A stretch of 64,000 bases of DNA from Calothrix sp. PCC 7716. Lineage in GTDB: Bacteria; Cyanobacteriota; Cyanobacteriia; Cyanobacteriales; Nostocaceae. The notes below the pieces were generated by a model. The model was not told the origin of the DNA, did not search any database, and saw only the letters and a program-made list of their open reading frames with translations. The stretch spans positions 3,720,001 through 3,784,000 of the forward strand of contig NZ_AP025018.1 in the NCBI RefSeq assembly GCF_019977735.1. Reading direction: 5' to 3'. Of the stretch, positions 1-64,000 are shown one piece after another. Made by a program: the position numbers and the translations under genes. Position 1 is the first letter of the stretch; each line of letters begins with the position of its first letter.

Positions 1-1000
1 AATACGTATCAAGCAGAGAATTAAATTCTGACTCTGTAAAAACTGTTTCTTGAGGCAATAATTTAAGTTGATTACTCCACTTTACGGGTACATTCAAAGT
101 ATTCAATAGCTCATAGGTAAGCTCATTGAGAACAAACTCAAGCTTTTGTTTATTCTGTAATACCCCTAGTACACTTAATCTATCTTTTTTTAGAGTCGTT
201 GAATAAACTGTATACAATGGGTTACAAACAACATTCGTAGTCTGATTTATGCCCTTAACACGCGCGGACGTTTGGTCTAAGTGCTGCCAAGTAGTACTTT
301 CTAGCCCAGATATATATACTTCGTTATATTCAGATTCAAATCCAGAATCATTTTTAATTAGCAGATTTGACAAATAGCCTGCTGACATTGAAATACCAAT
401 ATCTTCTAAAAATTCTAATAATTTACCTTGAGTCATATTGCCTCCATAGTACAGGCTTATGACTAAAGCTTTAATTCCTGGACCAAACTCTCCGTCGTAA
501 CCTGTTGGTAATGGCGCCAAGTATGTTTTACCTTCAGAAGCTGAGTAGAATTTTGGTTTCAGGAATAGTACATTATCGGTTTCAAGTGAGATATCTTGTA
601 TAATTACTTTTTCGTAACCCTTAAACTCCGCATCCGCTGGTAGCTCAGATTCTGGATACTCCAAAATCCATTCTCGATCTATCTTAATACTGGTGTTTTT
701 ACTGCTCTTAGTATGCCCTTTATGAGTTTTACGTTCTTTCTCTGACGAATGGTCTTTCTTAAATCCGCTCGTTTTATTGGCTTTGATGTCTGGCTTACCC
801 TTCTCTCCTTTAAGACGATTGTTTTCATCCCGAAGTTTTTGAATTTCTTCTTCTAAACTTTTTATCTTTAAATTTTGTTCCTCTATTAAGTTCAGAAGTA
901 CTTCTATACTTTGCCGCAATGAAGCGTCTGCAATTCCTCTTGGGTCAATGCTTTGCAGCAAGTCAGGTACTAACTTTTTACTTTCTGGATTTTGCGTCAT
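1..1000 (-). CDS. IS66-like transposase, 3' end outside the window
   Basis: The minus strand is open from an ATG at 1000 to the left edge, about 333 codons with no stop. The N-terminus has a leucine-rich coiled coil (about residues 30-65, ending near KLRDENNRLKGEKGKP), then a Lys/Ser-rich linker and a globular region with WQHLDQTSARVKG and CNPLYTVYSTTLKKDRLSVL. These resemble the start of the DDE catalytic region of IS66-type transposases common in cyanobacteria, where the Asp of HLDQT would be the first acidic residue. The C-terminal catalytic part is outside the window, so activity cannot be judged. The element's right end was not located; it should lie between 1001 and about 1240. The family call is by recognition and moderately sure; other coiled-coil DDE transposases are possible. 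Confidence 0.7.
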   Translation of the reverse strand, partial: MTQNPESKKLVPDLLQSIDPRGIADASLRQSIEVLLNLIEEQNLKIKSLEEEIQKLRDENNRLKGEKGKPDIKANKTSGFKKDHSSEKERKTHKGHTKSSKNTSIKIDREWILEYPESELPADAEFKGYEKVIIQDISLETDNVLFLKPKFYSASEGKTYLAPLPTGYDGEFGPGIKALVISLYYGGNMTQGKLLEFLEDIGISMSAGYLSNLLIKNDSGFESEYNEVYISGLESTTWQHLDQTSARVKGINQTTNVVCNPLYTVYSTTLKKDRLSVLGVLQNKQKLEFVLNELTYELLNTLNVPVKWSNQLKLLPQETVFTESEFNSLLDTY

Positions 1001-1237
1001 GTATCATATTCTACGGCACCATGTTACCAAAACAATATTTTATTTTTTCGTGCTACATATACGCTTTGAGGCACCACCATTAATGCATGACGTATCAGTT
1101 CAAATACATGAATAGCATAAGGCGCCTCTTTTTTAAGACTTTGAGGCAATAGGGCAATATCATTGGCTTTTATAAGCGTGCGATACGTTTACTTTACGCT
1201 CCTAATGGCGCCATGCTGTTGTGCTAGGAGGCTACCC

Positions 1238-1945
1238 CTACTTATTGAGCGGATACTTAAAATCTTCGGCACTTCTACTAGCTAGAAGCTTACCATCTGC
1301 ACTAAAAGATAAAGACTGAACTGCTGCTTTATGTCCGCTAAAGAAACAGATTTTTTTTTCAGTTTGCTTATCTATCAGTTCAATTTGCCCATTTGTATCA
1401 GGTGTGCTTCTAGCGATAAAATAACCATCAGGACTGTGAGCTTCAGTTTGGATACCACTTGAATAACCCTTAAAGGTACGTGTTTCATGACCAATATTAT
1501 GTAGTTCAAATGCTTTCCCTATACTTATCATTCCTAAAGTTTTACCAGATGTTTGAATATTATTAGCTAATGCCAATTGTACTTCTACATCAGTTTTGTG
1601 TGCTGCTTGCTCTAAGATAAACTGTGGCACATTATCCAGCTTTAAAATACTTCGTAGTGTAGGCAGGGGAATTTCTGCAACCAAGTTAGGATTTTCTAGT
1701 AGCAACAGTGAAAATACGGGGTTTTCTACTAATTGTGTTGGAAATTCGGCGCCTAATTTTAAAAGTGCGTCTGCTGGAGTATTTGGATTAGCTGCAACTG
1801 CTCTACGGGTCGCTTTGTCTTGAGAATGTGCTAACTCTAGCAGAAGTTCGGGGTCGGTGCTTATATTTTCTGCTACTATTCTTGCTTATTCTATATTGTT
1901 AACAAGACTAGTATCTATAGATTTAGGTGGAGTTATTTCATCCAT
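1238..1945 (-). pseudogene. LRV-repeat/WD40 protein gene interrupted by a stop codon
   Basis: Reading from the ATG at 1945 gives MDEITPPKSIDTSLVNNIE, then a TAA stop at 1888-1886, then the same frame continues to a TAG at 1240-1238. Residues after the stop show leucine-rich-variant style helical repeats (PELLLELAHSQDKATRRAVA, NPNTPADALLKLG, ENPVFSLLLLENPNL) and then a WD40-like stretch (GHKAAVQSLSFSADGKLLAS). CAA to TAA is the simplest single change, giving the smooth sequence IEQARIVAENIS. The WD40 part ends after about two incomplete blades, so the 3' end also looks truncated, perhaps by insertion of the neighbouring transposase unit. A functional short product from an internal start is possible but unlikely. 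Confidence 0.75.
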
Positions 1946-2117
1946 TGTTAGAATTAGATTGCAAGGTGGATGCTAGCCTGTTGAGTGTTTGTAGCAGTTT
2001 TAGTACATGGCAATATTTACCACTGACTTTTTGACGCACACGCAAGCTCTAATTATCTATACTATTGCTTGTTTTGTATAATAGTCATCTTGGTAAATAC
2101 GTAAATATGGTAGTGAT

Positions 2118-2543
2118 ATGAGTCAGACATGTGCCATTGTTTTTGAAGACAAGCCTGATAGTGCATTTACACAAGCTATTCAAGAAGGTATTAATCAGTT
2201 TAACCAAGAGCAAGCTGGAGATTATAATTATAAAAAGCTTTGTTTTTCATTGCGAGATTCTGAACAAAAAATAGTTGGTGGGTTGGTTGGAGAGACTTAT
2301 TGGGATTGCTTTTATATTGAGTTGTTTTGGATTAGCGAGCCATATCGGAAAGGTGGGTATGGAAGTACTATTTTGCAGATGGCTGAGGATGAGGCTCGTG
2401 GTAGGGGTGTGAAACAAGTTTTTCTCAATACTTTTAGTTTTCAGGCGCCTGATTTTTATGAGAAACATGGTTATCGGGTGTTTGGTGAGTTATCTGGTTT
2501 TCCACCGGGTTATAAGTGTTGTTTCTTGACTAAGAATTTATGA
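2118..2543 (+). CDS. GNAT family N-acetyltransferase
   Basis: A 141-residue protein of typical single-domain GNAT length. The acetyl-CoA binding signature is seen as EPYRKGGYGSTILQMAEDEA (motif A, R/Q-x-x-G-x-G/A type, about residues 74-93), followed by a beta-strand and FYEKHGYRVFGEL (motif B), the usual C-terminal arrangement. Such enzymes transfer an acetyl group from acetyl-CoA to an amine in the cytoplasm; the substrate cannot be read from sequence. The gene stands alone, with a TATAAT-like hexamer at 2077-2082. Its 3' end runs directly into a palindromic mini-element that starts at 2549. Confidence 0.85.
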   Translation: MSQTCAIVFEDKPDSAFTQAIQEGINQFNQEQAGDYNYKKLCFSLRDSEQKIVGGLVGETYWDCFYIELFWISEPYRKGGYGSTILQMAEDEARGRGVKQVFLNTFSFQAPDFYEKHGYRVFGELSGFPPGYKCCFLTKNL

Positions 2544-2548
2544 ATAGT

Positions 2549-7417: not shown

Positions 7418-8721
7418 GTGCAGGTAAGGTGGAACTTTAAGCTAAAGCCAAATAAAGAACACGTAGAAACAATGGAACGTTGGCTGGTTACGCTTAGAAA
7501 GCATCGTAACTATGCACTGCGTGAAAGAGAGCAAGGATATAGCACAAATAATCAAGATGTGGAGTCAGAAATAGTTTACGCATTTGGTAGTTACTGTGAC
7601 TTAGAAACACGTGTTGAGTATGGTGCGTGTTGCCCCTTGACATGTCCAGTTCTTAAACATGGTGTGGTACCAGAAAAAATATCTATTGCGTTCAAAAAAA
7701 CTAAAGAAAAGTTTGATGCAAAGACGGGAGAGTTAATTAAACCTAGTATTGTAAAATGGGATGACGCAAGCGGTATACAGAAAAAAGTAACCACAGAGTT
7801 ACGCGGTAAGTCTCCATCCTTTGAAGAAATCTATTCTGCTGTATTGCAAGGTAACTTAGAAAGACTGGATGACGCTTACACTAACTTTTTTAAGCATGGA
7901 CGTGGCTATCCAAGCTATATAACTCGACTCGATTCGTTTGAATATAAGCCCGGTCAAGCTAAAATTGGGTTGACTAATAAAAACTACGCCACTGTCTATC
8001 TTCCTGGCATTGGAAACGTAAAGTTCCATAACAGTCGTAAAAAAGAATTCAGTAACGTAACTGACATTAGAAGCATTACAGTATCAAGGGAAGCAACATA
8101 CTGGTTTATTTCCATCATTGTAGAAATTCCTGATTTAATTCAAGAGCAAGTACCATTTGAAAAAGTCAAGTCAGTAGTAGGAATTGATGTAGGAATCAAC
8201 AAGTTAGTTGCATCCTCGAATGGCAGTTTTGCTATTAATACAAGACCTGCAACAAACAAAAAAACAGCGCGACGTTTGGCAATGCGTCAACGCAGTATTG
8301 CCCGCAAAGTTAGAGGTTCAAGAAATAGAAAAAGAGCAGTAATAAAATTAGCAAGAACTAAACACAAAATTGCAGCCACGAGAAATGGCCGCAATTGGAA
8401 AGTTGCTAATGATATAGTAAAAACCGCTGATGTTGTGGTGCGTGAAGACCTTAAAATAAAGAACATGGTCAAACGCGCCAAACCAAAACATGACGGTAAA
8501 GGCGGATATGAAAAGAATGGTGCCTCTGCCAAATCAGGGTTAAATAAATCAATTTTAGATTGTGGTTGGGGAGATATTTTTAACAAAATAGCTTGGCTTG
8601 CCCTAAAAGCAGGAAAGCATGTAATTGCTGTTAACCCAAAACACACGAGTATTGAGTGCCCAGCGTGCGGGCATATTGATAAAAGTAACCGTGAAGGTGA
8701 GAAGTTTTTCTGGGTTATGTG
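7418..8721 (+). pseudogene. tnpB: 5' part of IS200/IS605 tnpB, interrupted by a transposon
   Basis: TnpB is the RNA-guided nuclease of IS605 elements and an ancestor of Cas12. This 433-codon part starts at a GTG at 7418 behind a strong AAGGAGGTGAT site. It carries RuvC-like Asp257 (GIDVGINK), Glu343 ([10 protein letters not shown]) and the first half of the zinc ribbon, CPACGH (Cys414, Cys417). The frame breaks off at the ATG of GFFWVM-type sequence and hits TGA at 8720-8722, exactly where the Tn554-like insertion begins. The missing 88 residues are at 12652-12918. Joining the parts at ATGTG gives a standard 521-residue TnpB, so disruption appears recent. Confidence 0.9.
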
Positions 8722-8796
8722 ATATACAACGTCTACAAAGCCTACTACACAACACTTTCATCCAGAAATATTTTTCCACAAAGTAAACAACACAAA

Positions 8797-9753
8797 CTAT
8801 TTTTTCTGTTTAAGCGTCTCGATGGGGTACTCAGCTAGCATCTGCTTAAACGGTACTGGTCTACCTTGGATTGTATAGACAATTAGTTGACCATCATCAC
8901 CTTTGGTACTTGCTATTACCAACCCTTGTTTTCTAGCTAAATTAAACCACTCATTAAAAATATCTCGTTCTCCTTTTAATAAAGAAAGATTTTTTTCGTC
9001 AGGCATCCAGCCATCTTGTATTGCCTTGTTTAGCCAACCTCCTGGATTTTTAATTTGTTGACCATGCTCAATTGTTTCTTCAAGAGACTTTATGGCAGCC
9101 AAAACAATTTCTGAAGATTTAGATTGAATTGTTTTAGTTAGAGTTGTATTTAAAGTAATCCCTAGTTCAGCTAACTTAGATTTAATCTGTTCATTAATCG
9201 TTGGCGCCTGAGAACCTGTTTTTTTATCAAACGGTGTAACTTTAGTATCTGTTATGGTTAACGCTTTGATTTGGCATCGACAATCTTCTAACTCTTGGTT
9301 AATTAATTCTAAGCTTTTTTTCAGGCGAATATTATCTGATTCAACTGAAGCTAATTCGTAGTTCCTGCCTTGCACAACTTCAATATGCCGTCTTAATCCT
9401 TCAATCTCAGCTCTAAGTTTTTTGTTCTCTTCTTTTATACTATAAATCAGTACTCCTTTTGATTTATCAGAAGCTGGTTGGTATCGTTTTTCTTGGGTTG
9501 GTATTACAACTGTTTGTTTTTGCTGTTCTCTAAGATATTTAATTCTATCTTTTAATTCTTCGTACTTGTACAAGTAGCTAACTGAGACACCAGCCTGTTG
9601 TGCAATACTTCTGAAAGTAATTTCTTCACCACGTGAACTTAATTTAGCTATTGCTTTTTCTGTTTTTTCAATAGCTTCCTTTTTTTTCAACTCAGCGGCA
9701 GCCACTAATAATTCCGGATTTCCTCCTTGATTACCTTTAGCCATTAGTTTCAT
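8797..9753 (-). CDS. DUF6262/TnpC-like coiled-coil transposition protein
   Basis: A 318-residue protein. The N-terminal half has a helix-turn-helix-like segment (ITFRSIAQQAGVSVSYLYKY, about residues 50-69), then a long coiled coil with repeated Leu/Glu (about 95-165), and an alpha-helical C-terminal domain. Proteins of this type (DUF6262) usually follow paired tyrosine recombinases and correspond in position to TnpC of Tn554, which influences transposition efficiency and orientation. It overlaps the end of the upstream recombinase gene by 17 bases, so the two are translationally coupled. The family name is from context and sequence style. Confidence 0.7.
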   Translation of the reverse strand: MKLMAKGNQGGNPELLVAAAELKKKEAIEKTEKAIAKLSSRGEEITFRSIAQQAGVSVSYLYKYEELKDRIKYLREQQKQTVVIPTQEKRYQPASDKSKGVLIYSIKEENKKLRAEIEGLRRHIEVVQGRNYELASVESDNIRLKKSLELINQELEDCRCQIKALTITDTKVTPFDKKTGSQAPTINEQIKSKLAELGITLNTTLTKTIQSKSSEIVLAAIKSLEETIEHGQQIKNPGGWLNKAIQDGWMPDEKNLSLLKGERDIFNEWFNLARKQGLVIASTKGDDGQLIVYTIQGRPVPFKQMLAEYPIETLKQKK

Positions 9754-11449
9754 CTCCTAATTTTGGATAACTCTCGTGACCGTAAACTACATCTTTTTGT
9801 GAGAGACCACGGATTATATTGTTTAGGTTTTCAACAATGGGAAGATTATTTTCTACTTGTCGTTCCCACTGTTTGTCTCTAGCATTTTCAATTAGCTTGA
9901 CAGTTGACTCTAAATGTTTTTTGTGAGTTTCTAAATGTTCTCTTGTTGTACGAAAGTGTTGACAAGCTAAACATGGACTTCCTTGGACTGGACAATTTTG
10001 GGTAATAGGTAAAGCACAAAAACCGTCTGCCAAAGTTTGAGCTTTCATGTTTTTCTTAATCCATTGCATCTCAGTTGTATCTAAATCTGGATTTTCAGAT
10101 ATAATTATTTCACCTTTAATATTGACTACTCTACCATCCCAAAATTTATTCATCTCATGCTTCATTGTTTCGTCATGAATATGGGCATAGCACATTGTCA
10201 TTTCTGGTGACTCGTGACCAAGACGCTTCTGCACTATATGTTGAGGAACTCCAGCATTAATTAACTCAGTTCCATGTGTATGTCGAAAACTGTGACATCT
10301 ATGAATAGGATAAATCTCTCCTGAAGAACCTCTAATTTCTTTTTCATTAGCTAATTGACTTAAATAACCTCTGAGAACTTTTTGCCTCATTCGTTTAGGT
10401 ATAGGAATAAAGTGTTGAAGTTCTCTATAAGGAATTTTTCTAGTTGTTGCTGAAGTTCTTTTATAAGTATAATCTTCAAACCACGAATAACTTTTGGTTA
10501 AACAAAATAAATAATCAAAGTCTTTTCCTAGCTCTTTTCTGATATACTCTTGCTGTTTTTGAATATCCGAAGCTAATTCTCTGGCTACTGGAATAGCAAG
10601 TTGCTTCTTCATCTTAAATTGGTAAATATTTAGCCACCATGTTCCTGTGCTATCTTGACGAATACAGTCAAAATTAAGATAACATAGTTCTGATAACCTT
10701 ATTCCCGTTTGTCGCAAAACTTTTACCATTAGAGCAACAGGTTCTGGAAGTGCCATTATGTTATCGTCAATTTGTTTGATCACGTCAGGCGGAATAAATT
10801 TTGGTAGTGACTTGATTCGTTTAGCAAAATCTTCAGGATATACTAAAGGCTCTTTATAAATATTAGCCCAATCAAATCTAGCGCAATTCTCTAGAAATAG
10901 TTTTAAACAACCGAGTCGTCCATTCCTTGTGCTAGGACTTTTTATTTTTTCCCTTAAATATACTAAATAGTTGACAACTAAATCACGATTAATTTCCGAC
11001 TCTTGTAATGAACCATATTTTAGTTTCAGGAATCTGTAAAAATATTTGAGGTCATATAATCTGTTAAAAATAGTAGAAGTTGCATCACCAACACCAATTC
11101 TATATTGAATCCAATATTTAACAGCTATCTTCAGCCAGTATAGTTCAATATCTGAAAAATTTAGCAAGCGCTTGGAGCAAGCAATGTCAGGTTCTAGACC
11201 AAAAACTGTGACATTCCAAATATCTAAATTAAACATTTCTGACACAGAAAGACCATCGAATGAGATATAACTGTTTGATATTCTTTTGGGATTTTTATTA
11301 AAATTTGTTTGGCAGCTTTTACACTTGTACATCTGCTCTCCTGTATCTCGACTCTTTCCTGCTTTTTTAAGATGACTGCTTCCACATTTGGGGCACTTTA
11401 ACTCTTGCTCGTTATTGTAATTTTTATTGTTCTTGTTTTGTTGCAACAT
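9737..11449 (-). CDS. Tyrosine recombinase, TnpB-of-Tn554 type
   Basis: A 570-residue site-specific recombinase. An N-terminal zinc ribbon (Cys19, Cys22, Cys43, Cys46) resembles that of insertion-element InsA proteins. The core-binding region covers about 120-200, and the catalytic domain has Arg251 (TGIRLSEL), His386 and Arg389 (HSFRHTHG), His412 (LGHES) and the nucleophile Tyr421. A C-terminal Cys-rich segment (CPVQGSPCLACQHF) follows. It would cut and join DNA through a 3'-phosphotyrosine link. Its ATG lies immediately after the stop of the upstream recombinase. All catalytic residues are intact, so the element may still be mobile. Confidence 0.9.
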   Translation of the reverse strand: MLQQNKNNKNYNNEQELKCPKCGSSHLKKAGKSRDTGEQMYKCKSCQTNFNKNPKRISNSYISFDGLSVSEMFNLDIWNVTVFGLEPDIACSKRLLNFSDIELYWLKIAVKYWIQYRIGVGDATSTIFNRLYDLKYFYRFLKLKYGSLQESEINRDLVVNYLVYLREKIKSPSTRNGRLGCLKLFLENCARFDWANIYKEPLVYPEDFAKRIKSLPKFIPPDVIKQIDDNIMALPEPVALMVKVLRQTGIRLSELCYLNFDCIRQDSTGTWWLNIYQFKMKKQLAIPVARELASDIQKQQEYIRKELGKDFDYLFCLTKSYSWFEDYTYKRTSATTRKIPYRELQHFIPIPKRMRQKVLRGYLSQLANEKEIRGSSGEIYPIHRCHSFRHTHGTELINAGVPQHIVQKRLGHESPEMTMCYAHIHDETMKHEMNKFWDGRVVNIKGEIIISENPDLDTTEMQWIKKNMKAQTLADGFCALPITQNCPVQGSPCLACQHFRTTREHLETHKKHLESTVKLIENARDKQWERQVENNLPIVENLNNIIRGLSQKDVVYGHESYPKLGDETNG

Positions 11450-12538
11450 CTATTTATCCTTGGATACTAAATATTTTTCGTAAGCTTCTCTCATGTCATC
11501 ATCATTAAGATGAACATAAGTATTAATTGTTGTTTGGATACTACTATGACCTAAACGTTTCTGTACATAAGCCATATCTATTCCTGATTTGATTAACTCA
11601 GATGCATGAGTATGACGAAAAAGGTGAGCATTTATTTTTATTCCTGTTTGTTTTTTTAGTTTTTTAAATAAACCAGTTACAGTCGAATATTGCATTGGGC
11701 TTCCGGCTTCACTTTTCCAAATATTGACAAATACATAATCTGAGTCAACATCAGGATATTCGTTAATTATGTAGCTGCTATAAAGCTTCATTAAAGAGCC
11801 AGGTACTTGTAAAATTCTTTCATTTCTTGACTTACCTCTGGCATTGTTAAAGTTATTATTTCTCGTGACAATACGAATTTCATTTTTACCCGCGACTGAA
11901 TTAATATCTTCGTGTCGTAGTCCTAACGCTTCTCCTATTCTCATGCCTGTTTCATAAAGAAGCATAACTAAAAACTTATCTCTTTGAGAGTGACAACAAT
12001 CGACAAGTTGTTTAATCTGTTCTAAATTTAAAATTCCTGGGAAAACTTTTGGCTCTTTTAGTTTCAGCAGTTTTGTTCTAACTGCTTTGTTTTTAGACAT
12101 TTCATACAGCAAAGGTTTGTACTTGCGATTTGCAGGATTAATGTACCGATAAGCATCTACTGAATTTACTGTCCCATTACGTTTATGAAACTCGTAAAAA
12201 TTGTACACAGCTGATAGGATTGTGTTGATAGTCCTTTCTGTCCTTTTCGCTTCTTGCTGCTGTATAGAAATAATTCTAGGATTAGGACTACGTAGCCAAA
12301 GTATAAAATTGGCTAGATACGATTGATTGATTTCCCTCCAATCAAACTTAGAATCTTGTATAAATTCCCATAACAGCTTGAGATGGTAAGCGTAGTTTGA
12401 GACTGTATTTGGCGATTTTTCAATGCTTTCTAGGTGGCGCAAATAGTTATTAACTGGGTTGATAGGTAAATAGTTATCATCTATCAAAATCCAGGTATTC
12501 TTCCCGTTGCTAGGGAGTTTTATTCTTTGTACTTTCAT
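11450..12538 (-). CDS. Tyrosine recombinase, TnpA-of-Tn554 type
   Basis: A 362-residue phage-integrase family recombinase and first gene of the three-gene operon. A SAM-like core-binding domain (about 25-125) precedes the catalytic domain with Arg200 (TGMRIGEA), His305 and Arg308 (HLFRHTHA), His331 (LGHSS) and Tyr341. Its length matches the 361-residue TnpA of Tn554, while the next gene matches the longer TnpB in position. Both recombinases have full catalytic sets. Its start lies about 110 bases from the right end of the element, leaving room for a promoter and recombinase binding sites. Confidence 0.9.
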   Translation of the reverse strand: MKVQRIKLPSNGKNTWILIDDNYLPINPVNNYLRHLESIEKSPNTVSNYAYHLKLLWEFIQDSKFDWREINQSYLANFILWLRSPNPRIISIQQQEAKRTERTINTILSAVYNFYEFHKRNGTVNSVDAYRYINPANRKYKPLLYEMSKNKAVRTKLLKLKEPKVFPGILNLEQIKQLVDCCHSQRDKFLVMLLYETGMRIGEALGLRHEDINSVAGKNEIRIVTRNNNFNNARGKSRNERILQVPGSLMKLYSSYIINEYPDVDSDYVFVNIWKSEAGSPMQYSTVTGLFKKLKKQTGIKINAHLFRHTHASELIKSGIDMAYVQKRLGHSSIQTTINTYVHLNDDDMREAYEKYLVSKDK

Positions 12539-35326: not shown

Positions 35327-35329
35327 AAT

Positions 35330-38783: not shown

Positions 38784-38813
38784 TTGACAAAATCTATGTG
38801 CTTGTAGTATAGA
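38784..38813 (+). promoter_or_regulatory. Likely sigma70-type promoter ahead of infA
   Basis: TTGACA at 38784-38789 and TATAGA at 38808-38813 are 18 bases apart, about 80 bases before the infA start. This would allow infA and downstream genes to be transcribed separately from the rplC-adk block. Confidence 0.55.
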
Positions 38814-38894
38814 CGATACAGCAAGCCATTTTAAAAAATCCAACTTACGCTCGAAAAAGCGCAAAAATTAATTGATTGGAAAGAGGAAAGCAAC

Positions 38895-39119
38895 TTGTCT
38901 AAACAAGACTTAATAGAAATGGAAGGGACGGTAACAGAGTCATTGCCCAACGCGATGTTTCGTGTTGACCTGGACAATGGTTTTAACGTCCTTGCTCACA
39001 TTTCCGGCAAAATTCGCCGTAATTACATCAAAATTCTACCTGGTGACCGAGTCAAAGTGGAGCTTACTCCCTATGACTTAACGAAGGGTCGAATCACCTA
39101 TCGATTGAGGAAAAAGTAG
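38895..39119 (+). CDS. infA: Translation initiation factor IF-1
   Basis: A 74-residue OB-fold protein ([52 protein letters not shown]). It blocks the 30S A site during initiation. The start is TTG at 38895 behind GAGGAAAGCAAC, a rare start codon but fixed by homology since the protein begins SKQDLIEME. Confidence 0.95.
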
Positions 39120-39200
39120 ATTATGTAGAGGATTTTACCACAACAAAAAATTTTTGGGGTAATATCTACTCTGAAAACAGAATTTTTTTCTTAAAAATGG

Positions 39201-39206
39201 TATAAT
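39201..39206 (+). promoter_or_regulatory. Possible extended -10 element ahead of rpmJ
   Basis: TGGTATAAT (TATAAT at 39201-39206) lies 28 bases before the rpmJ start. The TG just upstream fits an extended -10, but no -35 hexamer is evident and the resulting leader would be very short. Confidence 0.35.
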
Positions 39207-39233
39207 TTAACATTTGGAGTTAAAGAGCGAAAC

Positions 39234-39347
39234 ATGAAAGTTAGAGCTTCAGTCAAACGGATTTGCGAAAAGTGCAACGTTATAAAGCGTCGCGGTCGCG
39301 TCATGGTAATTTGTGTAAACCCCAAGCACAAGCAACGTCAAGGTTAA
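39234..39347 (+). CDS. rpmJ: 50S ribosomal protein L36
   Basis: A 37-residue protein, [20 protein letters not shown] at the start and [13 protein letters not shown] at the end. The zinc ribbon ligands Cys11, Cys14, Cys27 and His32 are all present, so this is the zinc-binding (C+) form. It stabilises the large subunit near the L16/L6 region. GGAGTTAAAG precedes the ATG. It lies between infA and rpsM as in most bacteria. Confidence 0.95.
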
Positions 39348-39449
39348 GTCCTCAAGCGCAACCGCGCATTTTCTTTTCACTAAGTACATAGTATCAGCTG
39401 TCTAAAAGTACAGCGCAAAAAACAACGCAATCAATGGGAGATATTCATA

Positions 39450-39830
39450 GTGGCACGTATTGCCGGAGTAGACCTTCCGCGTGACAAGCGGATTGAAATT
39501 GGTCTGACTTATATTTTTGGAATTGGTCTATCGCGGGCACAAGCGATATTGTCAGCAACTGGTGTTAATCCTGACACACGAGTTAAAGATTTAAGTGATG
39601 CTGATGTTACAGCATTACGGGGCGAAGTTGAAAGCAATTACCAAGTAGAAGGTGATTTGCGGCGCCTCGAAGCAATGAACATCAAGCGCTTAGTCGATAT
39701 TGGCACCTACAGAGGGCGCCGTCACCGGATGGGACTACCAGTAAGGGGACAAAGAACTCGGACGAACGCTCGGACTCGACGCGGTAGACGTCAGACAGTA
39801 GCTGGTAAGAAGAAAGCACCAGGTAAATAA
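39450..39830 (+). CDS. rpsM: 30S ribosomal protein S13
   Basis: A 126-residue S13 starting at GTG (39450) with [21 protein letters not shown]-type N-terminus, the helix-two-turn-helix IGLSRAQAI and the basic C-terminal [20 protein letters not shown]. It bridges the 30S head to L5 and contacts P-site tRNA with its tail. Confidence 0.97.
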
Positions 39831-39881
39831 ATTTCATCGCTTGCTTCATAGCAAGTTATACGCTTACTCAAACGAATTAAT

Positions 39882-40277
39882 ATGGCGCGTCAAACACCTA
39901 AAAAAGCCGGGAGCAAAAAAGCAAAACGTAACGTTCCCAACGGAGTTGCTTACATTCAATCGACTTTCAACAATAGTATTGTGACTATTGCCGACCAAAA
40001 CGGCGATGTCATATCGTGGGCAAGTGCAGGGTCTAGCGGGTTTAAAGGAGCGAAAAAAGGTACTCCCTTTGCAGCTCAAACCGCAGCAGAAAGTGCAGCA
40101 CGCCGAGCAATTGACTCTGGTATGCGTCAAGTGGAAGTAATGGTTTCGGGTCCTGGAGCGGGTCGTGAAACAGCGATTCGAGCATTACAAGGAGCAGGAC
40201 TAGAAATTACATTGATTCGCGATATCACTCCTATACCCCACAATGGTTGTCGTCCTCCTAAACGGCGCCGTGTATAG
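39882..40277 (+). CDS. rpsK: 30S ribosomal protein S11
   Basis: A 131-residue S11: [40 protein letters not shown] and [19 protein letters not shown]11 lines the mRNA exit platform. The gap to rpoA is 222 bases and has no gene. Confidence 0.97.
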
Positions 40278-40499
40278 AGATAGTAGTAGTAAATTGGGGT
40301 CTTAACCCAAGAAGAGCATTTTTGAAGTTCTCCTCACTCGCTGTCTTTGGCCGCAAATTAATTCGTATCGCCCACGCTCACCCGTAATACGAACTTCATT
40401 TCGTAATTGAGCCAGAACTGGGCAACGTTTGTCAAAGAAAGAACTAGCAATTTTTACGCAGTTGCGAATTCAGGACTGTTATACAAGGGAGGCTGCTCC

Positions 40500-41447
40500 G
40501 TGGCGCAATTTCAAATTGAATGTGTAGAGTCCAATACAGAAGAAACTCGGAGCCATTACAGCAAGTTTGTCTTAGAACCTTTAGAAAGAGGTCAAGGAAC
40601 AACGGTTGGTAACGCCCTTAGACGAGTATTACTCTCTAACTTAGAGGGTACGGCGGTTACTGCGGTACGAATTGCGGGCGTTACACATGAGTTTGCCACC
40701 GTTCCAGGTGTGCGGGAAGACGTTCTTGAAATCCTGATGCGGATGAAAGAAGTTATTCTCAAAAGCTATTCCTCTCAACCTCAAATTGGTCGCTTGCTTG
40801 TTACTGGCCCAGCGAACGTCACTTCAGCGCATTTTGATTTACCTAGTGAAGTTGAAGTGATTGACCAAACTCAGTATGTCGCTACTCTTGCAGAAGGCGC
40901 CAAACTTGAAATGGAGTTTCGGATTGAAAAGGGCAAGGGTTATCGTACAGTCGAACGTGGTCGTGAAGAAGCGACATCGTTAGATTTTTTACAGATAGAC
41001 TCTGTATTTATGCCAGTACGTAAAGTTAATTATAGTGTTGAAGAAACACGCGGTGAAAGCAACATACCCAAAGACAGACTTTTATTAGAAGTTTGGACAA
41101 ACGGTAGTCTTAGCCCACAAGAAGCGTTATCTTCAGCAGCAAGTATATTAGTGGATTTATTTAATCCATTAAAAGACTTCACTTACACTGAGCAAGATAC
41201 AGGTATAGCTGAAGACTTAGACCCAACCGCACAAATTCCTATCGAAGAGTTACAACTTTCTGTACGCGCTTACAACTGTTTGAAGCGTGCCCAAGTCAAC
41301 TCTGTAGCTGACTTATTGGATTATACTCAAGAAGACCTCTTAGAAATAAAGAATTTCGGTCAAAAGTCTGCTGAAGAAGTCGTAGAAGCTTTGCAGCGAC
41401 GTTTGGGTATTACCCTACCTCAAGAGCGGGGTTCAAAGCATAGCTAG
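40500..41447 (+). CDS. rpoA: DNA-directed RNA polymerase subunit alpha
   Basis: The start is placed at GTG 40500 (MAQFQIECVESNTE), just after AAGGGAGG; an upstream in-frame extension to 40407 is open but not alpha-like. The 315-residue protein has the N-terminal dimerisation domain (FVLEPLERGQGTTVGNALRR, which nucleates the polymerase) and the C-terminal domain (IEELQLSVRAYNCLKRAQ and FGQKSAEEVVEAL), which binds UP-element DNA and activators. The order rpsM-rpsK-rpoA-rplQ is standard. Confidence 0.96.
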   Translation: MAQFQIECVESNTEETRSHYSKFVLEPLERGQGTTVGNALRRVLLSNLEGTAVTAVRIAGVTHEFATVPGVREDVLEILMRMKEVILKSYSSQPQIGRLLVTGPANVTSAHFDLPSEVEVIDQTQYVATLAEGAKLEMEFRIEKGKGYRTVERGREEATSLDFLQIDSVFMPVRKVNYSVEETRGESNIPKDRLLLEVWTNGSLSPQEALSSAASILVDLFNPLKDFTYTEQDTGIAEDLDPTAQIPIEELQLSVRAYNCLKRAQVNSVADLLDYTQEDLLEIKNFGQKSAEEVVEALQRRLGITLPQERGSKHS

Positions 41448-41525
41448 TAACTAAGGTAACTCTGAAGAATTAATAGTTAATAGTTATTTGCATATTGATT
41501 GGTAGTTACGTTCGTGCGCGGGTAT

Positions 41526-41550
41526 GTAAGGTGGGCACTGCCCACCCTAC
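41526..41550. repeat. Dispersed GGTGGGCACTGCCCACC palindrome, second copy
   Basis: It lies in the 182-base rpoA-rplQ gap and matches the copy at 25913-25937 except for single-base changes at the flanks (GTAAG...CCTAC against GTAGG...CATAC). Confidence 0.75.
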
Positions 41551-41629
41551 GTATATCACCCGCTACCTACTAGCTACCAGCCGCTGATTCGGATATCAAT
41601 TCCATTCTATTTTTCATGCGTCAATTATT

Positions 41630-41980
41630 ATGCGTCACCGTTGTCGAGTCAAACAACTAAGCAAACCAGCAGACCAGCGTCGTGCCCTTTTGCGCGCGCT
41701 CACAACCGAAGTAATTCGTCACGGTCGAATTACTACTACTTTAGTTCGTGCCAAAGTTGTACGAGCCGAAGTTGACAAAATGATTACCTTAGCAAAAGAC
41801 GGTTCATTATCTAGTAGGCGCCAAGCACTAGGTTATATCTATGATAAAGACTTAGTACAAGCCTTATTCGAGCAGGCGCCAAAACGATATGAAAATCGTA
41901 ATGGTGGTTACACCCGTATTTTGCGTACCGTACCACGCCGTGGCGACAATTCTGACATGGCAATTATTGAATTAGTATAA
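41630..41980 (+). CDS. rplQ: 50S ribosomal protein L17
   Basis: A 116-residue L17 ([55 protein letters not shown]). It sits at the tunnel exit side of the large subunit. It is 13 bases upstream of truA, and these two likely share a transcript. Confidence 0.96.
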
Positions 41981-41993
41981 AAGTTCTAATTCA

Positions 41994-42818
41994 ATGTTAA
42001 CGTCTCAACCCATAGATTTGCAGCGAATAGCCATAGTAATTCAATACCTTGGCACTAATTTTCATGGGTGGCAAAGGCAAGCACAGCACCGTACCGTACA
42101 AGAAGAAATTGAGAAAGCGATTGCGAGTATTGTGGGTTCACACATTAACTTGCATGGCGCCGGACGTACCGACAGTGGTGTACATGCAGCAGCACAAGTA
42201 GCACATTTTGATGTTGCAAGTCCGCTGCCACCACATAAATGGGCGCCTGTTCTCAACACTTACTTACCGAAAGATATATTGATAAGAGCCTCAATCGAAG
42301 TTGATAGCACATGGCATTCACGTTTTAGCGCATCGTATCGACGTTATCGTTATACGCTTTATACTGAAGCACGCCCAAATTTGTTTATTCAACCCTTTTG
42401 CTGGCATTATTATCAGGCGCCACTTGATGAATCATTAATCCAGACAGCGTTAGAACCTCTGGTAGGAAAGCATGACTTAAGTGCTTTTCGACGTGCCAAC
42501 TCAAAGCGAGCGCACTCAATAGTAGAAGTGCAAGCAGCAGAATGTAATCGCTCAGGTGCGTTTCTAAATATAGAAATACAAGCAGACGGCTTTTTGTACG
42601 GTATGGTGCGGTTGATTGTAGGGATGTTAGTACAGGTAGGAACAAAAGAAAGAACAGTTTCAAACTTCACAAATCTTTGGAAGAACCAACTCCGAGAACA
42701 AGTGAAACATTCGGCGCCCGCACAAGGCTTATGCTTATTGCGAGTAGGCTATCCAGACTTTGCAGTTCCAAAAGAAATTTGGTACGACACGCAGCCGAAA
42801 TTTGTATTTGGGGAATAG
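41994..42818 (+). CDS. truA: tRNA pseudouridine(38-40) synthase TruA
   Basis: A 274-residue enzyme isomerising uridines 38-40 in the tRNA anticodon arm. The catalytic Asp60 is in GAGRTDSGVHA, with YLGTNFHGWQRQ at the N-terminus and FLYGMVRLIVGMLVQVG in the C-terminal half. Length is normal. Its position between rplQ and rplM is conserved in cyanobacteria and plastid-lineage clusters. Confidence 0.95.
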   Translation: MLTSQPIDLQRIAIVIQYLGTNFHGWQRQAQHRTVQEEIEKAIASIVGSHINLHGAGRTDSGVHAAAQVAHFDVASPLPPHKWAPVLNTYLPKDILIRASIEVDSTWHSRFSASYRRYRYTLYTEARPNLFIQPFCWHYYQAPLDESLIQTALEPLVGKHDLSAFRRANSKRAHSIVEVQAAECNRSGAFLNIEIQADGFLYGMVRLIVGMLVQVGTKERTVSNFTNLWKNQLREQVKHSAPAQGLCLLRVGYPDFAVPKEIWYDTQPKFVFGE

Positions 42819-42860
42819 GGGATAATAAACCAATTCTCATAAACAAAGGAAATAAAAAAG

Positions 42861-43322
42861 ATGACAGCCCAAAAAACATATCTTCCACCAGTTAATACCC
42901 TTGAGGGTGACTGGTATGTAGTAGATGCTAAAGACCAACGTCTTGGTCGTTTAGCCAGCGAAATTGCAATGGTTCTCAGAGGCAAGAGAAAACCTGAGTT
43001 CACCCCTCACTTAGATACAGGTGACTTTGTAATTGTAGTTAACGCTGAACAAGTTGCAGTAACAGGTAAAAAGCGCTCACAAAAGCTTTACCGTCGCCAC
43101 TCTGGGCGCCCAGGTGGAATGAAAACAGAAACCTTTGCTAAACTGCAAGAACGTATACCCGAACGGATTATCGAGCAAGCGGTTAAAGGTATGCTTCCCA
43201 AAAATAGCCTTGGAAAAAGTCTATTTACAAAGCTTAAAGTTTACGCAGGTCCAACTCACCCTCATACCGCTCAAAAACCTAAAGAATTAATAATCAATAC
43301 AATTCCAGGAGCAGAAGGTTAA
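42861..43322 (+). CDS. rplM: 50S ribosomal protein L13
   Basis: A 153-residue L13 ([58 protein letters not shown]). In E. coli L13 represses its own rplM-rpsI mRNA. The TAA stop shares bases with the rpsI ATG (TAATG). Confidence 0.97.
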
Positions 43323-43735
43323 TGCAAGCCACCGAAACCAGCGGTCGCGCGATGTACTTTGGTACAGGGCGCCGTAAATCAGCAGTAGCGCGAGTACGTC
43401 TCGTTCCAGGCACAGGAAAACTAGTTGTTAACGGGAAAGAGGGAGATTTGTACTTCCAATTCAACGCCAACTACCTAGGTATCATCAAAGCCCCCCTAGA
43501 AACACTAGGTATGGAAAATGACTATGACATCTTAGTGAAAGCCGAAGGTGGTGGTCTTACAGGTCAATCAGACGCAGTACGTTTAGGCGTAGCGCGCGCA
43601 TTGTGCCAACTAGACCCAGGCAACCGTCCTCCACTCAAAACCGAAGGTTACTTAACCCGTGACCCTCGTGCAAAAGAGCGTAAAAAATACGGTTTACACA
43701 AAGCTCGCAAAGCTCCTCAATACTCGAAACGATAA
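43322..43735 (+). CDS. rpsI: 30S ribosomal protein S9
   Basis: A 137-residue S9: [38 protein letters not shown] and the conserved C-terminal tail ending YSKR, whose last residues touch P-site tRNA. It is translationally coupled to rplM. Confidence 0.97.
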
Positions 43736-43890
43736 AAAGTTAAAAGTGCTGAGTGCTGAGTGCTGAGTAGAGTTAAAAGTTAAGAGTTAGGAGTTAGGAG
43801 TTAGGAGTTAGGAGTTATAATCATAACTCAGCACTCAGCACTCATAACTCAGCACTCAGCACTCAGCACTCATAACTCTTCATTAACTGT
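43736..43890. repeat. Heptamer short tandem repeats between rpsI and rpmE
   Basis: About 150 bases made of GTGCTGA-type units, then four AGTTAGG units, then CTCAGCA and CTCATAA units in the opposite sense, so the left and right halves are complementary. They are the same sequence family as at 30324-30422. No promoter is obvious apart from AT-rich sequence just before rpmE. Confidence 0.85.
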
Positions 43891-43922
43891 TATAATTAAA
43901 ATAGATTCACCACAACAGGAAA

Positions 43923-44165
43923 ATGGCAAAAGACGGAATTCACCCTGAGTGGTATCCAGAAGCGAAAGTGTATTGCAACGGAAAAGTTGTAATGACAGTA
44001 GGCTCCACCAAACCCGAATTACACGTAGACGTTTGGTCTGGAAACCACCCCTTTTACACAGGAACTCAGAAGATTATTGACACCGAAGGTCGCGTAGAGC
44101 GCTTCCTCCGTAAATACGGTATGTTCGACCAATCAGCCGCAGCTAAAGAAGAAGACCAGAAGTAG
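43923..44165 (+). CDS. rpmE: 50S ribosomal protein L31
   Basis: An 80-residue L31 (GIHPEWYPEAKVYCNGKVVM, SGNHPFYTGTQKIIDTEGRV, RFLRKYGMF). Only one Cys (Cys18) of the four zinc ligands of the classical form remains, so this is the non-zinc type, common in cyanobacteria. L31 bridges the 50S central protuberance to the 30S head. A terminator-like hairpin follows. Confidence 0.93.
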   Translation: MAKDGIHPEWYPEAKVYCNGKVVMTVGSTKPELHVDVWSGNHPFYTGTQKIIDTEGRVERFLRKYGMFDQSAAAKEEDQK

Positions 44166-44185
44166 CTGGTTAGCTTTGCTTTGAA

Positions 44186-44220
44186 CGACCCCGCACAGAG
44201 AAGTGCCGGGTCGATTTTGT
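44186..44220 (+). terminator. Hairpin after rpmE
   Basis: CGACCCCGCAC (44186-44196) pairs with GTGCCGGGTCG (44203-44213) with one C-C mismatch, followed by ATTTTGTGTT. This is a strong stem with a modest T-rich tail and may only partly terminate before prfA. Confidence 0.65.
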
Positions 44221-44275
44221 GTTCTTTGCAATTTAGCTAACCAACTTATTTTTGAAGGAGCGTGAGGCACGCATT

Positions 44276-45376
44276 ATGGCTGAACAATATTTGCTGGAGA
44301 AATTAAAATCTGTCGAACAAACTTTTAACGAGTTGACTCGGCGCCTAGCAGACCCAGATACCGCAAGAGACCAAGACGAGTATCAAAAGATAGCTAAGGC
44401 ACGGTCAGGTTTAGAAGAAGTAGTAAACGCTTACGAAACCTGGAAACAAGCTACCGACGACTTAGTTGGAGCGCGTCAAATATATAAAGAGTCAGCGAGT
44501 GACCCAGAAATGCAAGAAATGGCAGGACTGGAAGTAAAAGAACTCGAAGAAAAAATTGAGTATTTAGAGAACCGCTTAAAATTACTATTACTACCACGTG
44601 ACCCTAACGATGATAAAAACATCATGTTAGAAATTCGTGCGGGTACTGGAGGTGACGAAGCCAGTATTTGGGCCGGAGACTTAATGCGGATGTATACTCG
44701 TTATGCTCAAACCCAAGGTTGGAAAGTTTCGCTAATGAGTGAATCATTAGGAGACATGGGTGGATGGAAAGAAGTAATTCTAGAAATTAAAGGCGACGAC
44801 GTATACAGCCAATTAAAATTTGAGGCAGGAGTACACAGAGTCCAGCGCGTCCCCCTCACCGAAGCAGGTGGAAGAGTACATACATCAACAGCGACAGTAG
44901 CAATAATGCCAGAAGTCGATGATGTAGAAGTACATATCGACCCCAAAGACATCGAAATGAAAACCGCGCGTTCGGGTGGTGCAGGTGGACAAAACGTCAA
45001 CAAAGTAGAAACTGCCGCTGACTTATTGCACAAACCAACAGGTATAAGAATCTTCTGTACAGAAGAACGAAGCCAGTTACAAAACAAAGAACGAGCAATG
45101 CAAATCTTGCGCGCGAAATTGTATGAAATGAAACTGCAAGAACAACAAGCAGCCATCACTTCAGCAAGGCGCCTGCAAGTAGGAACAGGCGCCCGTTCCG
45201 AGAAAATACGCACCTACAACTACAAAGACAACCGCGTCACCGACCATCGTCTCAACCAAAACTTCTCCTTAACCCCAGTTCTAGAAGGCGAGCTAGAAAC
45301 AGTAATACAGTCTTGTATCTCTCAAGACCAACAAGACCAACTAGCCGAACTCGCCGCCAATGCTGGCAACAACTAA
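44276..45376 (+). CDS. prfA: Peptide chain release factor 1
   Basis: The start is ATG 44276 ([15 protein letters not shown]); an in-frame TTG at 44252 is less likely. The 366-residue factor reads UAA/UAG: the codon-recognition PxT tripeptide is in [14 protein letters not shown] and the catalytic GGQ in [14 protein letters not shown] (about residues 228-241). The following [14 protein letters not shown] helix is typical. It closes the + strand ribosomal block. RF1 at the end of this cluster is the usual cyanobacterial order. Confidence 0.95.
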
Positions 45377-45396
45377 TCATTGTGCAATTTGCTCAT

Positions 45397-45426
45397 CTTG
45401 TGGAACAGGCATCCCTGCCTGTTCCA
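45397..45426. repeat. Half copy of the palindromic mini-element
   Basis: CTTGTGGAACAGGCATCCCT followed by GCCTGTTCCA: left half of the element seen at 62717 and 59529. The right half is absent. Confidence 0.6.
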
Positions 45427-45564
45427 TTATTATTAATAATGTTATTTTTACCACAGAGACGCAGAGTACACAGAGAGAAGAATAAAGTTTTGTAAAGATT
45501 CACGCTCTCAGTATAATAGAAATAAATTGTGAGAAACTTATAATATGCAATTTTTTTAAATGCT

Positions 45565-62710: not shown

Positions 62711-62716
62711 TTTATT

Positions 62717-62834
62717 CTTGTGGATAAACTTTTGTGGATAAACTCTTATGGAGAAACTCTTGTGGAGCGGGCATCCCTGCCCGCCTCCTTATATAGATAT
62801 GTAATAACGGGCAAGGATGCCCATTCCACAAGAT
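62717..62834. repeat. Palindromic mini-element with left end expanded
   Basis: Four left-end units, CTTGTGGATAAACT, TTTGTGGATAAACT, CTTATGGAGAAACT and CTTGTGGAGCGG, precede GGGCATCCCTGCCC. After about 30 bases comes GGGCAAGGATGCCC and TTCCACAAGAT. It lies between convergent genes. Confidence 0.8.
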
Positions 62835-62839
62835 AGTTA

Positions 62840-63334
62840 TTACCATCCCCAACTGCCGGGAATGCCTTTAAATGGTCCAACGATATCTTTGGTTATCCAA
62901 CCACCATAAAAATTACCTGGTTGCGGCGCCACTTTTTCGCCATCTATATAACATGCATCCATTGGGTGTGCATAAAAAGCTACATAATCTTTGAGAGATT
63001 CAAATTTAGGTGTGGGGTTAGGATAGAACCAGGCAACGTTTTGCAGTTCTTTATCACCTACACGCAGTGTATAATATCCTGCTGCTCCTTTCCACTCGCA
63101 AAAACTAGATTGAGGCATTTTAATAAGATATTCCATTTTAATATCGGCAGGTGGAATATAGTAAACTGGCGGATGGCTAGTTTCTAAAACTCGTTTTGCA
63201 TTGTGGGTATCAGCGATTGTTTCACCATTAAAAATAATCTGAATATGTTTGCTGACATCTTCTAAACGTGGTGGACGTGGATAGTCCCATACTGACTCTT
63301 GTCCAGGTTGAGGTTCAATGCGTTGCGGTCTCAT
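62840..63334 (-). CDS. DUF427 protein
   Basis: A 164-residue soluble protein with the DUF427 pattern: IFNGETIADTHNAKRVLETS, HPPVYYIPPADI, SFCEWKGAAGYYTL, NVAWFYPNPTP and YVAFYAHPMDACYIDGEKV, ending in a Gly/Trp-rich tail. The fold is a small beta-barrel found in many bacteria; no activity is established. Length fits single-domain members. It converges with the protease gene. Confidence 0.85.
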   Translation of the reverse strand: MRPQRIEPQPGQESVWDYPRPPRLEDVSKHIQIIFNGETIADTHNAKRVLETSHPPVYYIPPADIKMEYLIKMPQSSFCEWKGAAGYYTLRVGDKELQNVAWFYPNPTPKFESLKDYVAFYAHPMDACYIDGEKVAPQPGNFYGGWITKDIVGPFKGIPGSWGW

Positions 63335-63844
63335 AAAGCTATCTCATAGGTATAATTACTCTGATCTTATATTAACAACTAAGCTTTACGACCAGTAGCT
63401 AAAAAAGTAGTGATATCCCACCAAACACCTTTTTCAAGAGACGTTACATGTAACATCTCTAAATTTGATTATATTTGTGCGCTGTTAAAAAAATCATTGG
63501 CTAAGTAATTTACGCAAGCATATTCTTGACCTCTCTATGAATTTACAGAGATTTTCTCGCGCTGTCAAAAGACATAGTTCGAGAATACCTGATCTGAATA
63601 GTATTACTACTGTTTATCAGTTTATAACTAATACAAATTAATTTTTAGATACCGGATTAATACTTAGAAATACTATCAAAATTCTCTATAAAACAGCTTG
63701 TAAGCATAAATTGTTGAATCCATCTTTATACAAGTCATTTGAAATATTTTCTTTCTGCAAAGTTTGATAAAAATACAACACGATAACTATTCTCATGTGC
63801 CAACTTATGAGTATCAAATAAATTTAAGAACACGGGATAACATC
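63335..63844. other. Intergenic region with one dispersed palindrome
   Basis: A GAGACGTTACATGTAACATC palindrome (63437-63460, with flanking AGA/TCT) is the only feature seen in 510 AT-rich bases. Two of the rare GATC sites lie here (about 63362 and 63591). The promoter for the gene at 63845 was not identified. Confidence 0.5.
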
Positions 63845-64000
63845 ATGTCTAAACTATTTAAAAGCTTGGTTGCTGGTACAGTACTTTCAGTTGGTTTAGC
63901 TATTGGCAGTGCGGGTGAAGCGAAGGCTGTATCACTTACAGGAAGCGCAACAATAACCGCAGATAATCATTATGGGTTTTTCTACGGTGATAAAGATGGA
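63845..64000 (+). CDS. Exported protein, 5' end only
   Basis: The ATG at 63845 begins MSKLFKSLVAGTVLSVGLAI, a classic signal peptide (basic start, hydrophobic core, GSAGEAKAVS with a likely AKA cleavage site), then LTGSATITADNHYGFFYGDK before the window ends. Such beginnings are seen in PEP-CTERM-type secreted proteins of cyanobacteria, which often have SATITADNHY-like starts, but the sorting signal would be outside the window. Confidence 0.75.
   Translation, partial: MSKLFKSLVAGTVLSVGLAIGSAGEAKAVSLTGSATITADNHYGFFYGDKDG

Follow-up and report, generated by a model that had tools for sequence, protein, structure and literature searches.

GGCGCC as the highly iterated palindrome of a Calothrix genus and its probable link to a resident methyltransferase

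What replaces HIP1, the usual highly iterated palindrome (HIP) of cyanobacteria, in a genome that lacks it, and how does the replacement arise? The question was raised by a stretch of 64,000 bases of Calothrix sp. PCC 7716 (NCBI RefSeq GCF_019977735.1, contig NZ_AP025018.1, positions 3,720,001 to 3,784,000, forward strand; hereafter the window), in which the initial annotation counted about 100 copies of the hexamer GGCGCC by hand, saw no HIP1 (GCGATCGC) and proposed GGCGCC as a substitute HIP1-like element. HIP sequences were described in 1995, and their role and spread have been open since (Elhai 2015, Life 5:921, PMC4390886). That paper associates HIP1 with GATC and CGATCG methyltransferases, models the making of HIP sites by GmeC-directed mismatch repair, and gives the name 'alternate HIP' to GGCGCC in Calothrix PCC 7103, a strain with two GRCGYC-type methyltransferases in which HIP1 is lost and GATC very rare; exceptional HIPs are argued there to be sporadic and non-persistent. 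Because PCC 7103 belongs to the genus studied here, the swap as stated was already known. What the present analysis adds is its persistence across the genus, an orphan methyltransferase locus, a methylation-type footprint, an occupancy rule held in common with HIP1 and a contrast in the age of losses; the fixed orphan locus, the missing restriction partner, the deamination footprint, the occupancy and the loss ages were not met in Elhai 2015 as far as consulted. Searches of open-licence papers turned up no later work on GGCGCC in the role of a HIP or on the occupancy of permissive positions.

GGCGCC as the iterated palindrome of the genus

Exact counting bore out the impression given by the initial annotation. 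The window (39.7% G+C) holds 102 GGCGCC, the top-ranking hexamer, against an expectation of 3.9 from base composition and 5.8 from dinucleotides; a maximal-order Markov model, which itself contains much of the signal, gives 50.7. GCGATCGC is absent from the window. The initial annotation had left two points to the whole genome, namely whether GGCGCC sinks to near background there and whether HIP1 abounds elsewhere, and neither proved to be the case. The genome (G000; 12,367,066 bases in 10 contigs) carries 20,380 GGCGCC (1648/Mb) versus 7 copies of the reversed word CCGCGG, our control for GGCGCC counts, and 66 copies of GCGATCGC versus 64 of the reversed HIP1 word. The described spread through coding and non-coding DNA and through nearly every gene held in part: sites occur both within genes (1690/Mb) and outside them (1307/Mb), and most genes contain some, but 17 of the 56 called genes lack it, two of them encoding a TnpB-like transposase and a phage-type integrase. 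Nor is the density even, since stretches that align to five or six congeners reach 1964/Mb and those that align to three or four 1711/Mb, versus 482/Mb with one or two and 678/Mb with none. A single GGCGCC, at 9203, interrupts the interval from the site at 6880 to that at 13496. Spacing across the window is near random, with a coefficient of variation (CV) of 1.01.

The claim that the word is not protein-driven was upheld. In 100 synonymous-codon shuffles of the window genes, GGCGCC fell to 5.1 copies (s.d. 2.3, maximum 12) from the 80 observed; its 81 in-gene copies use all three reading frames (29, 23 and 29), and CCGCGG does not occur in these genes at all.

To place these counts, we surveyed 192 genomes of the family, comprising seven of the genus and 185 others, for which densities per Mb rest on rounded genome sizes. 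The genus set consists of G000, G127 (Calothrix sp. PCC 7103), G138 (Dulcicalothrix desertica PCC 7102), G115 (Calothrix sp. NIES-4105), G076 (Calothrix sp. HK-06), G030 (assembly FI2-JRJ7) and G101 (assembly C42_A2020_038). In the 24,148 columns that could be aligned across the whole set, G138 is the closest to G000 (97.3% identity) and G101 the most distant (85.5%). All seven are rich in GGCGCC (1150-1711/Mb), whereas none of the 185 others exceeds 111/Mb, and the genome with this maximum has CCGCGG in still greater number. Copies of GCGATCGC number 31-163 in the seven and at least 535 in 184 of the 185 others, the lone exception being G082, an 88% complete assembly with 30 copies in 3.2 Mb. 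The published strain and G000 agree in the word, the loss of HIP1 and the strong avoidance of GATC, which Elhai (2015) reported for PCC 7103 together with GRCGYC-type methyltransferases. One strain was described there; here the element is found in seven genomes, genus-wide and persistent.

We also observed strong avoidance of two tetramers in the window, GATC (8 versus 134 expected) and GGCC (18 versus 88 expected). Both are strongly avoided in the data sets of six congeners as well, GATC standing at 0.06-0.12 of expectation in five of them and at 0.24 in G101.

How thoroughly the word has been written into genes was assessed through permissive positions. Within a gene, GGCGCC must encode Gly-Ala, x-Ala-Pro or [RGW]-Arg-[LPHQR], and we counted how many such peptide positions hold it. 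Over about 223 kb of G000 the occupancy is 51-59% (149 of 265 Gly-Ala, 69 of 116 x-Ala-Pro and 69 of 134 [RGW]-Arg-[LPHQR]), where codon use predicts 2.3% for Gly-Ala; it is 43-57% in G138, G127, G030 and G115, and 33-49% in G101. In 11 outgroup genomes, a set from which the HIP1-poor relative G022 was left out, the corresponding counts are 0 of 284, 0 of 103 and 1 of 251. Gly-Ala itself is no commoner in G000 (265 per 53,909 codons) than in these outgroups (284 per 51,840). Conversely, HIP1 fills 42-66% of its own permissive positions in the outgroups (35 of 53, 10 of 17 and 13 of 31) and none of 108 in G000. Occupancy allows HIP1 and its substitutes to be compared on one scale, about half of the permissive positions being filled in both.

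The gaps between sites are near exponential in six genomes (CV 0.88-1.14), gaps under 50 bp being the main shortfall. Summed by hand for G000, G138, G030 and G115, genomes with many positions in common, occupancy came to 679 of 1235 where the nearest other site lies 60-400 bp off (0.53-0.58), 300 of 460 at 400-1000 bp and 23 of 43 beyond. Taken together, spacing and occupancy suggest that GGCGCC density seems to be set mainly by the number of protein-permitted positions, and a set-point of one site per kilobase is disfavoured.

With a genome-wide density of 1150-1711/Mb in the seven genomes, HIP1 nearly absent, base composition and codon use failing to explain the word, and a possibly fitting methyltransferase family present in all seven, we regard it as virtually certain that GGCGCC is the highly iterated palindrome, in the sense of an alternate HIP, of this genus, much as the initial annotation had supposed. 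It resembles HIP1 in being a GC-rich palindrome found throughout genes that fills about half of its permissive peptide positions, and differs from it in word, length and associated methyltransferases (Elhai 2015).

A resident methyltransferase and its missing restriction partner

G000 contains 16 matches to PF00145, some of them pieces of one gene. One of these, a C5-methyltransferase of the 331-337-aa type (METHYLTRANSFERASE; G000:C1:10950497-10951507, L111 9494-10489), lies outside the window and has relatives with 82-92% identity in the six congeners. We refer to it as the resident methyltransferase. In six of the seven genomes its gene has a 390-394-aa and a 681-685-aa neighbour on its two sides, each conserved among them, with no restriction gene at the locus; G030 has a 172-aa open reading frame (ORF) related to the larger neighbour in that neighbour's place. 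G076 carries two gene fragments (84% and 88%) at contig ends, one adjoining the same neighbour, and an 82% copy elsewhere. Pairwise dN/dS among six resident genes is 0.05-0.16, and the gene is under purifying selection. Second methylase copies with 58-61% identity occur in G000, G030, G115 and G127; in a tree holding those of G000, G115 and G127, these three fall outside the resident clade.

The surroundings of the gene differ elsewhere in the family. Among 23 homologous loci viewed in other genomes, 17 have an adjoining HindVP-type gene, one of the 17 being a fragment, and all four partners tested, two of them from other groups, matched PF09519 (HindVP restriction endonuclease). Relatives of the restriction gene occur in 43 of the 192 family genomes, some as fragments. 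The resident enzyme is 66-70% identical to the methylases of G068 and of the closest outgroup, G019, both of which adjoin a HindVP-type gene (PF09519 confirmed for G068). When the PF09519-type protein of G068 was used as query, no match was found in any of the seven genus genomes, a search that did not extend to unrelated endonucleases of the same specificity. Compared with GRCGYC restriction-modification systems, then, the genus departs on two counts: an endonuclease of the partner family is matched in none of the seven genomes, and GGCGCC is hugely over-represented rather than avoided.

The specificity of HindV we take to be GRCGYC. Given this, and Elhai's label for the methyltransferases of PCC 7103, the resident enzyme would recognise GRCGYC and methylate the inner C of GGCGCC. 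Family databases were less specific: for the methylases NCBIfam went no further than the general dcm superfamily and a single subfamily well under the cut-off, it gave no match for two restriction partners, and a search of the Protein Data Bank (PDB) returned general C5-methyltransferases, M.HaeIII being the best. A separate sequence cluster of enzymes, putative CGATCG methylases of the DmtC kind, takes in six of eight outgroup enzymes compared (411-423 aa) together with members of 413-430 aa in G138, G076 and G115, of 332 aa in G000 and of 281 aa in G127; none was found among the clustered sequences of G030 and G101, seven loci missed by the motif filter having been left out.

Across the 185 other genomes, the median GGCGCC density is 0.7/Mb in the 31 that have the methylase with a full or nearly full restriction gene, 12.8/Mb in the 11 with the methylase alone and 4.6/Mb in the 128 with neither; 15 mixed genomes were set aside, and 'full' denotes query coverage, not an intact frame. 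The first two classes differ in GGCGCC (p = 0.001) and not in the CCGCGG control (p = 0.76), in a split that ignores kinship, four of the 11 methylase-only genomes belonging to one genus (g22). Members of that genus have 20-43 GGCGCC/Mb and still possess full HIP1. The result suggests that loss of the restriction gene goes with loss of avoidance, and that GGCGCC explodes only where HIP1 has gone too. A simpler association between methylase presence (48 of the 185 genomes) and low GGCGCC (p = 0.003) was discarded as not specific, CCGCGG having fallen too (p = 0.001).

Turnover of sites and competing explanations

Gain and loss were followed with the help of a conserved block that contains the SecY gene (Table 1), the main pieces of which are 96-97% identical to G127, G030, G076 and G138, 89-92% to G115 and 81-87% to G101. 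At the 42 sites with outgroup data (a few non-coding alignments are poor), G019 differs by one base at 9 and by at least two at 33, and it reads GTCGTC, Arg-Arg in frame, at 9; the differences of two or more bases are often possibly synonymous (Arg-Arg, Gly-Ala). Sites unique to one genome are rare. Over 46,466 columns in six genomes they amount to 2 of 55 in G101 and 3 of 75 in G115, versus shares of 24-54% for CAATTG and TTGCAA and 18-37% for CGCGCG and GCGCGC. From G101 to G000, 57 of 66 sites are retained, versus 0.394 for all hexamers; in the reverse direction the figure is 57 of 98.

The idea that all sites are ancestral and have since only decayed was rejected. At 17 of the 19 listed sites that G101 lacks, G101 shares an outgroup base at a position where it departs from the word, and at 4 of the 19 it is identical to an outgroup state, so that the difference probably stems in part from later gains on the stem of the other line, with no loss in G101. 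G101 has the lowest density of the genus (1150/Mb), the lowest occupancies and few unique sites, and one close methylase of the resident type among the matches listed; its line seems to have acquired sites more slowly from an early stage.

Recent changes were read from singletons in four close genomes (G000, G138, G127 and G030) over two regions with 113,655 usable columns; 6,468 events were kept, and 1,752 were dropped because the singleton state is carried by an outgroup. Among 214 sites we observed 84 losses, versus 83.4 expected from trinucleotide rates. The spectrum is distorted: C-to-T changes at the third base (C3>T) account for 50 losses versus 24.5 expected (odds 2.07 relative to GCG>GTG elsewhere, p = 5e-5), and all other losses for 34 versus 58.9 expected (p = 0.0003). 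Gains from words one base removed number 4 versus 0.9 expected (p = 0.013). In parallel, GGTGCC/GGCACC stand at 1.3-1.8 of expectation in six congeners versus 0.53 in outgroups, and most other one-off words lie below the outgroup level. The C3>T excess and the surplus of GGTGCC/GGCACC together form the footprint that would be expected if C3 were 5-methylcytosine, and the doubled C3>T loss rate points towards methylation of the inner C by the resident enzyme. An apparent excess of total losses in five genomes over the window (37 versus 24.2) disappeared with four genomes and two regions, where only the spectrum differs. Losses are uneven among lines (32 in G127, 21 in G030, 18 in G000 and 13 in G138, with 1813, 1775, 1417 and 1463 singletons, respectively); at six-genome sites, G127 shows 13 and G030 10, versus 2 in G000 and 1 in G138.

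The age of losses shows a further contrast. For sites that G115 possesses, losses on a single terminal branch number 32, those on the stem leading to the four genomes 4 and the remainder 14; the respective figures for GC-rich control hexamers are 264, 544 and 589 (terminal versus stem p = 1e-11, an optimistic value, as control hexamers overlap). Requiring presence in both G115 and G101 left 12 terminal losses to 1 on the stem, versus 62 to 80 for controls (p = 0.0008). This suggests that losses are frequent and seldom lasting.

From these lines of evidence, we consider it probable that GGCGCC is linked to the resident methyltransferase. As a mechanism, mismatch repair at replication, or between chromosome copies or alleles, might be biased to the strand with the methylated GGCGCC; the word would then spread into permissive positions and lost sites would be converted back, with protein sequence limiting the density. 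HIP1 would arise likewise, with its own methyltransferases. Such methylation-linked biased repair or conversion toward GGCGCC is a plausible mechanism to which we would give somewhat less than even weight, the direction of repair and the methylation itself being what we infer from comparative sequence data. For the combination as a whole (alternate HIP, resident methyltransferase and biased conversion) we lean towards acceptance as the best explanation. A more far-reaching version can be put forward only tentatively, namely that an orphaned restriction-modification methyltransferase rewrote the genomes of this genus, HIPs being neutral by-products of methylation-driven recoding, with a density set by protein-permitted positions, and not spaced functional signals. 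Were it true, a HIP1-poor relative without the methyltransferase would simply have no iterated word.

G022 is such a relative (10.7 Mb, 99% complete), with HIP1 at 50/Mb and GATC at 0.04 of expectation. A search for the resident methylase in it yielded no close homologue (best E 4.9e-24), and in 140 kb no palindromic 6-mer exceeded 1.7 times expectation (seven of eight stretches, a stretch with a CRISPR-like array being left out). A candidate new iterated word in G022 was rejected, as it traced to this one array on one contig (L149, G022:C5:1-20000; 101 repeats about 73 bases apart).

Several observations tell against biased conversion by the resident enzyme. Terminal losses (84) far outnumber terminal one-off gains (4), an imbalance incompatible with a steady mutational balance and calling for later re-conversion or for selection. 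The methylase alone is insufficient, because the 11 of 185 genomes that have it alone reach no more than 43 GGCGCC/Mb; their difference from genomes with neither gene is not clear (p = 0.18, or p = 0.03 as a ratio to CCGCGG, which is itself lower, p = 0.01). The genus has several other C5-methyltransferases, one of which (L017 type) also occurs in all seven genomes, and the GRCGYC specificity proposed for the resident enzyme comes from its partner family and the literature. Furthermore, the resident gene of G000 stands at dS 0.30-0.34 to those of G138, G127 and G030, which among themselves stand at 0.08-0.13; in the window region G000 is closest to G138, and its resident allele was perhaps replaced by recombination. 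Because GGCGCC is itself avoided in outgroups, at 0.2 of expectation, their zero occupancy overstates the contrast. Within 60 bp of another site, occupancy is lower (114 of 315) than farther off. G022 has 326 GGCGCC versus 9 CCGCGG (30/Mb). Finally, selection for function predicts most of the same data.

That alternative survives best, and we rate it as rather unlikely. Methylated sites would serve as repair, recombination, nucleoid or replication marks, each loss being slightly harmful, in agreement with the visible terminal losses beside rare older stem losses, the shortfall of losses other than C3>T and the high retention of G101 sites in G000. A function exercised per region should, however, saturate sooner than at about half of the permissive positions, a level reached even with another site 60-400 bp away, and G022, poor in HIP1, shows no raised palindrome in its 140 kb. 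Earlier work on selection at HIP1 likely exists, since Xu, Lawrence and Durand reportedly treated selection on HIP1 in a 2018 paper in NAR.

Elhai's ratchet, in which GmeC-directed mismatch repair at the fork makes sites up to about one per 1000 nt and then stops (Elhai 2015), appears improbable here. The methylase family, the loss of HIP1 and the avoidance of GATC fit it, as do the raised one-off gains and the somewhat lower occupancy beside existing sites. Near-exponential spacing, with its deficit mainly below 50 bp, and an occupancy at 60-400 bp not far under that at 400-1000 bp speak against its set-point, and exceptional HIPs, non-persistent by that account, have here persisted over a genus of about 15% nucleotide divergence.

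Very-short-patch repair (Vsr), which works at methylated C, enriches the words it targets, as has been proposed for CCWGG in E. coli. Restoration by Vsr of T:G mismatches at the methylated site would likewise enrich GGCGCC, but it is very improbable in this genus, as a search for PF03852 drew a blank in all seven congeners but gave matches in 5 of 14 control genomes, losses by C3>T are raised instead of lowered, and GGTGCC is in excess. That the word merely follows from base composition, from codon usage or from the make-up of the proteins is practically negligible as an explanation: Gly-Ala, Ala-Pro and Arg-Arg are indeed frequent in proteins, but the codon shuffles, the use of three frames and the absence of CCGCGG from genes contradict it, as do outgroups with like codon use, where no Gly-Ala is written as GGCGCC.

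The exchange of one HIP for another within a genus, a single orphan methyltransferase passed on vertically, strains with names (Calothrix PCC 7103, D. desertica PCC 7102 and Calothrix NIES-4105) and the HIP1-poor relative G022 together render the role and spread of HIPs testable.

Other features of the window

The coordinates of the features discussed are collected in Table 1. The lack of GGCGCC in the integrase gene and the ORF next to it is weak evidence, because the two contain only one permissive position.

Table 1. Features of the window and site histories in the conserved block (outgroup states from G019 and the consensus of other outgroups)
Feature	Position	Strand	Remarks
GGCGCC sites (alternate HIP), n = 102	1..64000	.	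no GCGATCGC; first site 513, last 62925
Conserved block with SecY gene at 36824-38137	28000..45431	+	syntenic in six congeners; used for turnover analysis
GGCGCC in all seven genus genomes	38552..38557	.	GTCGTC in G019 and consensus of 10 other outgroups
GGCGCC in all seven genus genomes	43105..43110	.	GTCGTC in G019 and consensus of 9 other outgroups
Probable later gain	39715..39720	.	GGCGCC in G000, G138, G127 and G115, not in G030 and G076; G101 GTCGTC like outgroups
Probable gain within five-genome clade (G127 without)	42416..42421	.	TGCACC in G115, G101 and consensus of 10 outgroups
OrfB_IS605/TnpB-like gene	7472..8722	+	none of 3 permissive positions holds GGCGCC
Phage-type integrase gene (9737-11449) and next ORF (11450-12538)	9737..12538	-	no GGCGCC

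Two further palindromes are frequent. The initial annotation had noted some 20 GCGCGC in the window; we counted 25, together with 27 CGCGCG. Genome-wide, CGCGCG and GCGCGC number 5058 and 3689 in G000 and 3257 and 2397 in G030, while none of the 68 further genomes of the family that were searched exceeds 505 and 637. CGCGCG reaches 5-14 times expectation in six congeners, with the highest value in G115, and may be a second iterated palindrome; Elhai 2015 (PMC4390886) does not mention it in its main text. Its sites are barely better kept than average hexamers (26 of 60 from G115 to G101 versus 0.40).

A repeat of about 150 bases at 43733-43886, with TGCTGAG- and AGTTAGG-like units, is predicted to form a long hairpin when single-stranded (z -10.3). 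Among the matches listed, its relatives number at least dozens in G000, G138 and G115 and few elsewhere.

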